Origin: Streptomyces gardneri
GTDB lineage: Bacteria > Actinomycetota > Actinomycetes > Streptomycetales > Streptomycetaceae
Reading direction: 5' to 3'
Length of the DNA: 64,000 nucleotides
NCBI RefSeq assembly: GCF_006539185.1
Contig: NZ_BJMN01000003.1
Location: 1-64,000 of the forward strand
Part shown: one piece after another, positions 816 to 884 of the stretch
How the letters are laid out: every line of letters begins with the position of its first letter
Position numbering within the stretch: the stretch's first letter is position 1
Program-made: the position numbers and the translations under genes
The notes under the pieces: generated by a model
What the model was told of the DNA's origin: nothing
The model's database searches: none
The model's input: the letters and a program-made list of their open reading frames with translations, nothing else

Positions 816-884
816 CGTCGCGTCCTGCCGTTGGACCACCGCCGATCGAGCTCGGCGGACCAGATTCGAACTGGCATTTCGACG
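816..884 (-). tRNA. Circularly permuted tRNA-like gene B
   Basis: Read on the minus strand, the 3' half comes first: anticodon-stem strand CGTCG (884-880), variable loop AAAT, T-arm GCCAG-TTCGAAT-CTGGT (875-859) and 3' acceptor CCGCCGA (858-852). A 6-nt spacer (851-846) follows. The 5' half comes next: acceptor TCGGCGG (845-839), TG, D-arm GTCC-AACGGCA-GGAC (836-822), G26 and anticodon-stem strand CGACG (820-816). Joining the halves in tRNA order gives a full cloverleaf: acceptor 7/7 pairs, D-stem 4/4, anticodon stem 5/5, T-stem 5/5 with one G-U. The invariant nucleotides U8, A14, G18G19, A21 and T54-T55-C56 are present, and A15 and U48 form the expected Levitt pair across the two halves. CCA is not encoded. 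The anticodon loop cannot be assigned: neither flank supplies a 7-nt loop with U33. Confidence 0.85.

Follow-up and report, generated by a model that had tools for sequence, protein, structure and literature searches.

A predicted twin-headed RNA with permuted tRNA-like domains accompanies the DUF7873 gene in Streptomyces gardneri and may form a particle with its product

The first 64,000 nucleotides (nt) of contig NZ_BJMN01000003.1 of Streptomyces gardneri (assembly GCF_006539185.1), hereafter the window, contain at positions 816-884 on the minus strand a permuted tRNA-like domain, which we designated head B. The original prediction described this domain as a tRNA gene with its halves in reversed order. 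Our analysis indicated that head B is the second of two permuted tRNA-shaped heads of a predicted RNA of about 370 nt, and that this RNA and the DUF7873 protein encoded beside it likely form a particle that docks tRNA enzymes, a reading to which we assign a probability of about 0.58. Comparison of related sequences established the two heads, P2 and P3 as the helices on which they sit, their covariation, and the tight association of the element with DUF7873 across Streptomycetaceae and phages. The original feature is real and important, but it was misassigned as a tRNA gene.

Head B matches its covariance model with 117.7 bits. Read 5' to 3' on the minus strand (884-816), it comprises one strand of an anticodon-like stem, the T-arm, an acceptor strand, a 6-nt loop, the second acceptor strand, T8-G9, the D-arm, and the other strand of the anticodon-like stem. 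The anticodon-like stem (884-880 with 820-816) pairs CGTCG with CGACG at 5/5 positions, and the T-arm (875-859) consists of GCCAG, TTCGAAT and CTGGT, with 5/5 pairs including one G-U. The acceptor (858-852 with 845-839) pairs CCGCCGA with TCGGCGG at 7/7 positions and is closed by the loop GCTCGA (851-846). In the D-arm (836-822), a D-stem of four pairs out of four (GTCC/GGAC) encloses the loop AACGGCA. Bases typical of tRNA were present at T8, A14, A15, G18G19 and A21. Every element that had been listed from the sequence was found, including the permuted order, the stems of 7/7, 4/4, 5/5 and 5/5 pairs with one G-U, and the positions U8-A14, A15-U48, G18G19, A21 and TTC. The boundaries 816-884 hold for head B; they do not hold for the element as a whole, which is about five times longer and carries a second head.

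Covariation was assessed in two alignments, A3 with 41 diverse head-B domains and A4 with 22 domains of the second head, head A. The aligned sequences were picked by a scanner that required most head stem pairs, but not P2, P3 or the outer pairs. RNAalifold found 28 pairs in A3, 27 of them with double changes, and the head B acceptor was paired in 41/41 sequences at all seven positions. Over the head B domain including the anticodon-like stem (33 pairs), 91.6% of cells were paired compared to 64.3% in shuffled alignments, and double changes were seen in 344 cells compared to 102.9. Compensatory changes between the halves in relatives, which the original prediction had named as a check, were present: the covariation score was 0.730 versus 0.226 (standard deviation 0.013) in shuffles, and 0/500 shuffles scored as high. 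With slid partners, 38-48% of cells in the head B alignment were paired. The anticodon-like stem was the weakest in head B (72.7% paired), which we would attribute in part to a register that moves with the variable loop. P3, with nine pairs, had 87.2% of cells paired and double changes at all nine. The head A domain was 89.0% paired versus 76.4% when shuffled, and its score of 0.369 versus 0.147 was likewise reached in 0/500 shuffles.

The permuted module, in its strict form, was located within 900 nt downstream of DUF7873 and on the same strand in 146/160 loci. These are the DUF7873 loci with at least 250 nt of downstream sequence, and they are not all independent, some being one locus fetched twice. 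The strict module was found in none of the controls: the opposite strand (0/160), upstream stretches (0/157) and dinucleotide shuffles (0/800). A chance fold, already judged unlikely in the original prediction, was ruled out by these counts together with the shuffles and the covariation. The 14 misses were L045, L127, L130, L133, L136, L137, L140, L141, L146, L152, L165, L166, L168 and L169. A covariance model recovered eight of them at 52 bits or more (L045, L127, L130, L136, L137, L140, L141 and L169, with L140 and L141 being one sequence twice), and L133, L146, L152, L165, L166 and L168 remained below 40 bits. All 30 fetched Streptomyces DUF7873 loci contained head B with 16/16 stem pairs, its T-arm lying 176-303 nt past the DUF7873 stop; head A was absent from five of them (L014, L019, L022, L029 and L038). 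The covariance-model search that had also been suggested gave full-length matches to head B of 92-127 bits, downstream and on the same strand, in 80/80 named Streptomyces DUF7873 loci, which were the best 80 of 532 and included some training sequences.

The covariance model of head B, designated R1, was then applied to three overlapping samples of genomes, with stricter filters in searches over 40 genomes. DUF7873 was present in 33 of 61 Streptomyces genomes; G043 (92 residues, E 9.8e-4) was left out, and full-length R1 matches (68-126 bits) occurred in exactly the 32/32 genomes with strong DUF7873 and in 0/29 others. Among 121 Streptomycetaceae, 75 carried DUF7873, and R1 at E 1e-9 was found in 73 of these and in 0/46 others. 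The two positives that lacked R1 were G229 (locus L045, 52.2 bits) and G469, where the DUF7873 match covers 64 residues. In 396 genomes of the phylum, R1 at the same threshold was detected in 6/7 DUF7873-positive genomes versus 0/389 others. The RNA is more than a 3' untranslated region, because it lies on the strand opposite the DUF7873 gene in L136 and upstream of the gene in L137, and because a terminator-like site separates gene and RNA in cyanophage Pam2. No such site was found between them in the Pam2-related locus L169.

Low R1 scores were interpreted with care. Tandem identical tRNA genes mimic the module, as seen at L003, and score 48.4 bits in the S. gardneri genome at C27:17340-17421, where there are two RF00005 tRNAs, and Y RNAs reach 54.3 bits; R1 scores below about 55 therefore need positional support, which applies to 13/44 loci in the R1 locus scan. 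Tandem tRNA genes were rejected as the source of the pattern in the window, where the heads have no neighbouring tRNA match and the sequences on either side of them covary as P2 and P3. The mimicry does suggest a route by which such heads may have arisen. The highest-scoring YrlA match among those listed for this genome (38.4 bits) also falls on adjacent tRNA genes, at G000:C27:17310-17460, which marks such genes as a source of false positives.

Relatives of DUF7873 were identified in 73 phage records, four plasmid records and 29 viral contigs. The phage records were distributed by host as Vibrio (29), Gordonia (12), Rhizobium (12), Klebsiella (7), Serratia (6), Arthrobacter (3), Pseudanabaena (2), Rhodococcus (1) and Microcoleus (1); 14 of them, and two of the plasmid records, were fetched for inspection. 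The DUF7873 gene lies within large tRNA arrays in Arthrobacter phage Mimi, Gordonia phage GodonK, Rhodococcus phage NiceHouse and Rhizobium phage TM21B. The strict module was located 3' of DUF7873 on the same strand in Mimi, GodonK, NiceHouse, Fryberger, Pam2, RHph_Y1_11, RHph_TM21B, RHph_TM16, the two fetched Klebsiella phages and Nonomuraea. Two fetched Vibrio phages carried a weaker module, and no trusted module was found in the Microcoleus phage, where the best R1 match was 30.7 bits and 2 kb away. In Pam2, heads A and B (L159 6857-7075) have an identical acceptor stem, CTCGCCC/GGGCGAG, as though one head were a copy of its partner. GodonK also contains a tmRNA match (RF00023, 90.3 bits, L156 3381-3909) that is partly annotated as tRNA-His.

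The whole element is predicted to be a structured noncoding RNA of about 370 nt at approximately 720-1088 on the minus strand, the strand of all its parts given below; its ends are approximate, and it is presumably transcribed. Folding of the window sequence alone gave a minimum free energy of -188.5 kcal/mol (z -3.78), with 0/100 shuffles as good, and recovered P1, P2, head A, P3, head B and a terminator hairpin. In the Streptomyces loci, conserved blocks lie between and around both heads. P1 is a hairpin of GCGC, GAGGA and GCGC at 1067-1079 (helix 1 of A4, 78.9% paired). The 5' strand of P2 (1043-1064, edges approximate) has a hexanucleotide periodicity that resembles (RYTGAA)n by eye, and its 3' strand (928-952) contains a conserved CTCAGACTATTGCTCCAGACTCAGC. 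Head A, at about 958-1037 and about 70 nt upstream of head B, was detected by R1 with 42 bits at 949-1032 and by covariation. Its T-arm (1024-1008) has a T-stem of 5/5 pairs, its acceptor (1007-1001 with 993-987) has 7/7 pairs, its D-arm (984-967) is class-II-like with three pairs and a C13.A22 mismatch, and its anticodon-like stem is formed at the two edges of the domain. The 5' strand of P3, GGGCCCGGG (893-901), is preceded by a conserved ATCGACC (908-902), and the 3' strand, CCCGGGTCC (794-802), is followed by TCAAG, which is TTAAACG or TCAAG in relatives. A terminator-like hairpin at 726-756 forms the predicted 3' end. It is conserved in the alignment and is weak alone, because shuffles give 0.6 (standard deviation 0.9) such hairpins compared to the one found.

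No Rfam family claimed the locus at gathering cut-offs. Four weak matches were seen in 600-1200: YrlA (RF02553), which covers head A with 23.3 bits against a cut-off of 69, and Scr4115, RT-13 and P5, which fall at or next to the terminator hairpin and the P1 region and which we attribute to chance. A tRNA-Ala called by ARAGORN at 999-1087 was rejected as a misreading of the head A T-arm as that of a normal tRNA; the RF00005 model did not match this region. Similar misreadings of the ARAGORN type may exist in phage records, such as the tRNA-Sup of Klebsiella phage FBKp24 (L170 4018-4097). A type III toxin-antitoxin system was considered because of the hexamer-periodic P2 strand and set aside; the DUF7873 proteins scanned against Pfam had PF25283 alone as a significant match. 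The window begins at base 1 of its contig, and the short tandem repeats (gagcc)n and (gacgagagcc)n occur at 1-85 and about 640-700, at the contig end and near a glyoxalase gene.

Just upstream of the RNA, 1125-1853 on the minus strand (243 codons without the start codon) encodes the DUF7873 protein, the predicted RNA-binding partner. The protein matches Pfam PF25283 over its full length with 401.8 bits against a cut-off of 27, and the Pfam entry is without an assigned function. The best AlphaFold2 model had a predicted local distance difference test score of 89.8 and a predicted template modelling score of 0.64. Foldseek and VIA-align gave no TROVE-like or other clear fold match to this model among the matches listed, the best hit of a sequence search of the PDB had an E of 0.44, and NCBIfam contained no match. 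PHROGs had no family for three of four DUF7873 proteins, the fourth matching at E 0.014 or worse. Across 16 divergent members, N88, P107, P129, L131, W137, S194, A219, A223 and N224 were invariant. Because in our view these residues do not resemble a catalytic set, a structural or RNA-binding role is proposed for DUF7873.

The acceptor ends of the heads were compared for features of tRNA 3' ends. CCA directly past the discriminator base was encoded in 23/46 non-redundant phage heads (A 13/23, B 10/23), compared to 12/549 at other loop offsets. Bacterial heads with redundancy kept had CCA in 20/91 A heads and 1/119 B heads, and non-redundant bacterial heads in 0/10 A and 1/24 B, or 1/34 overall. 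A73 was present in 27/33 non-redundant A heads and T at -1 in 24/46 phage heads, and closing loops were 6-10 nt long in 23/24 non-redundant bacterial B heads. The encoded CCA hints at heads that might be opened by RNase P and 3' processing, chiefly in phages.

We propose that the RNA and the DUF7873 protein encoded beside it likely form a particle, in which DUF7873 would bind the P2/P3 core and the tRNA-like heads would dock enzymes that recognize the tRNA elbow and acceptor. Candidates for docking, drawn from established tRNA and Y RNA biology, would be RNase P, RNase Z, the CCA-adding enzyme, TruB, Dus and PNPase. The invariant elbow bases (TTC, A58, G18G19 and T8) together with freely covarying acceptors are consistent with partners that read shape and not an amino-acid identity. 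A short loop caps the acceptor of head B in Streptomyces, a feature shared with Y RNA.

Circularly permuted tRNA genes occur in red and green algae and in some archaea, and the original prediction placed head B among them. The permuted order, the tRNA shape and the covarying halves were all supported, every tRNA stem and tertiary position is present, and half of the non-redundant phage heads encode CCA. In known permuted pre-tRNAs, the junction is re-ligated to give a continuous tRNA, according to passages of PMC3978253. Against a gene whose halves are excised and ligated to a functional tRNA, the anticodon-like stem extends into the covarying P3, position 33 is T in just 11/41 head-B domains, both heads belong to one fold of about 370 nt, and 66 tRNA matches elsewhere in the genome exceed the Rfam cut-off. 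Because P3 replaces the anticodon loop and U33 is not kept, we conclude that no tRNA is encoded, and a genuine permuted tRNA gene is very improbable. If the RNA were instead a divergent bacterial Y RNA acting in trans for Ro60 (Rsr), the same type of permuted module would be expected, since the tRNA-mimic domain of bacterial Y RNAs has permuted D, T and acceptor arms on a stem (described in parts of PMC11472068 and PMC8394870). YrlA was the one functional hint among the weak Rfam matches, and a TROVE match (about 60 model positions, above the cut-off) was found in 38/61 Streptomyces genomes. No TROVE match was found in the S. gardneri genome, however, and TROVE was distributed evenly with respect to DUF7873 (21/32 positive versus 17/29 negative genomes, p = 0.61). 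The two heads on separate helices of a 370-nt RNA also differ from the single tRNA-like domain and length of 90-150 nt given in sections of PMC8394870, and one-headed YrlA-like RNAs adjoin TROVE genes as separate loci. Such RNAs were present in 6/6 TROVE-adjacent regions chosen for partial R1 matches beside TROVE (L191-L196), with two each in four, and no Y RNA match was found at TROVE loci L171-L174. The sub-cut-off RF02553 score of head A is a weak argument, because these YrlA-like RNAs of Streptomyces also miss the cut-off of 69 (29.3-54.9 bits). Taken together, a Y RNA for Ro60 is highly unlikely. Deinobacterium chartae was the sole DUF7873-positive genome among 14 controls, and also the sole one with TROVE.

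The CCA, A73 and T at -1 would also be expected of a two-piece RNA like permuted tmRNA, with acceptor loops cut by RNase P and RNase Z and heads charged with amino acids; permuted tmRNA functions unligated as two pieces, as portions of PMC3978253 describe. We consider this explanation unlikely: CCA is nearly absent from bacterial B heads, their closing loops are short, acceptor bases vary freely, the tmRNA model RF00023 matched nothing in 600-1200 up to E 1, and the genome encodes an ordinary tmRNA at another site (contig C32, 166.1 bits). When tag frames were sought informally at seven loci, L155 had no frame of at least 20 codons, and the longest frames of L009 and L016 were partly alike, as homologous GC-rich DNA would be. 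Several phage copies lie within tRNA arrays, which would suit a decoy carried by such phages against nucleases or toxins that attack tRNA, and a competitive-inhibitor role has been proposed for the YrlA domain (in passages of PMC7790460). The RNA lacks an anticodon loop to bait an anticodon nuclease, however, and its carriage by 75/121 sampled Streptomycetaceae genomes suggests a cellular role, so that a decoy is quite unlikely. A regulatory 3' untranslated region or leader of the DUF7873 mRNA would explain why the RNA is mostly within 500 nt downstream of the gene on the same strand; the loci L136, L137 and Pam2, with the arrangements described above, make it hardly credible.

The proposed particle of twin-headed RNA and DUF7873 was likely unrecognized previously; neither the name DUF7873 nor a description of a twin-headed RNA was found in the literature searched, which for the latter comprised capped listings, abstract openings and passages. 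It would represent an RNA-protein system common to Streptomycetaceae chromosomes and to phages of at least three host phyla (Actinomycetota, Cyanobacteriota and Pseudomonadota), and would give a first functional lead for DUF7873, which has at least 7471 matching proteins among the best 7999 candidates scored. Bacterial tRNA mimicry would be extended past Ro60-Y RNA and tmRNA, and some unannotated gaps 3' of DUF7873 genes in phage tRNA arrays would be accounted for. The results also caution that permuted tRNA order in bacteria does not imply a tRNA gene. More tentatively, the particle could be a third tRNA-shaped ribonucleoprotein beside tmRNA-SmpB and Ro60-Y RNA. RNase P and 3' processing might convert the heads of an RNA held by DUF7873 into unligated, CCA-ended tRNA tops with two acceptor ends per particle. 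Phages would carry it in their tRNA arrays to gain control of tRNA maturation or surveillance in the host, and Streptomycetaceae would keep it as a cellular machine; this is a speculative and rather doubtful extension of the proposal.

The twin-headed RNA shares features with several known systems and is distinct from each. Like the permuted tRNA genes of algae and archaea, the heads encode the 3' half ahead of the 5' half with a short loop between; unlike them, they lack an anticodon loop and U33, their stem goes on as P3, and they are part of a long RNA. The heads resemble YrlA, a bacterial precedent that the original prediction did not name, in being a permuted tRNA-mimic module on a stem, as far as the excerpts cited above describe it. 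They differ in that there are two of them on about 370 nt, that their linkage is with DUF7873 instead of TROVE, and that a sub-cut-off RF02553 match covers head A only; and whereas the base stem of YrlA is formed by the 5' and 3' ends of the RNA, the two heads stand on separate helices. The permuted gene, the cuttable acceptor loop and the CCA of half of the non-redundant phage heads recall the permuted two-piece tmRNA, from which the RNA is set apart by its two heads and by the lack of a tmRNA match at the locus beside an ordinary tmRNA elsewhere in the genome; no tag frame was recognized in the informal look at seven loci. GOLLD and ROOL are large structured phage RNAs that are often near tRNA islands (passages of PMC12286853), and neither had an Rfam match at gathering thresholds in the window and 11 other DUF7873 loci. 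The twin-headed RNA is like them a large structured RNA present in phages, and unlike them it has a linked protein gene and tRNA-like heads.
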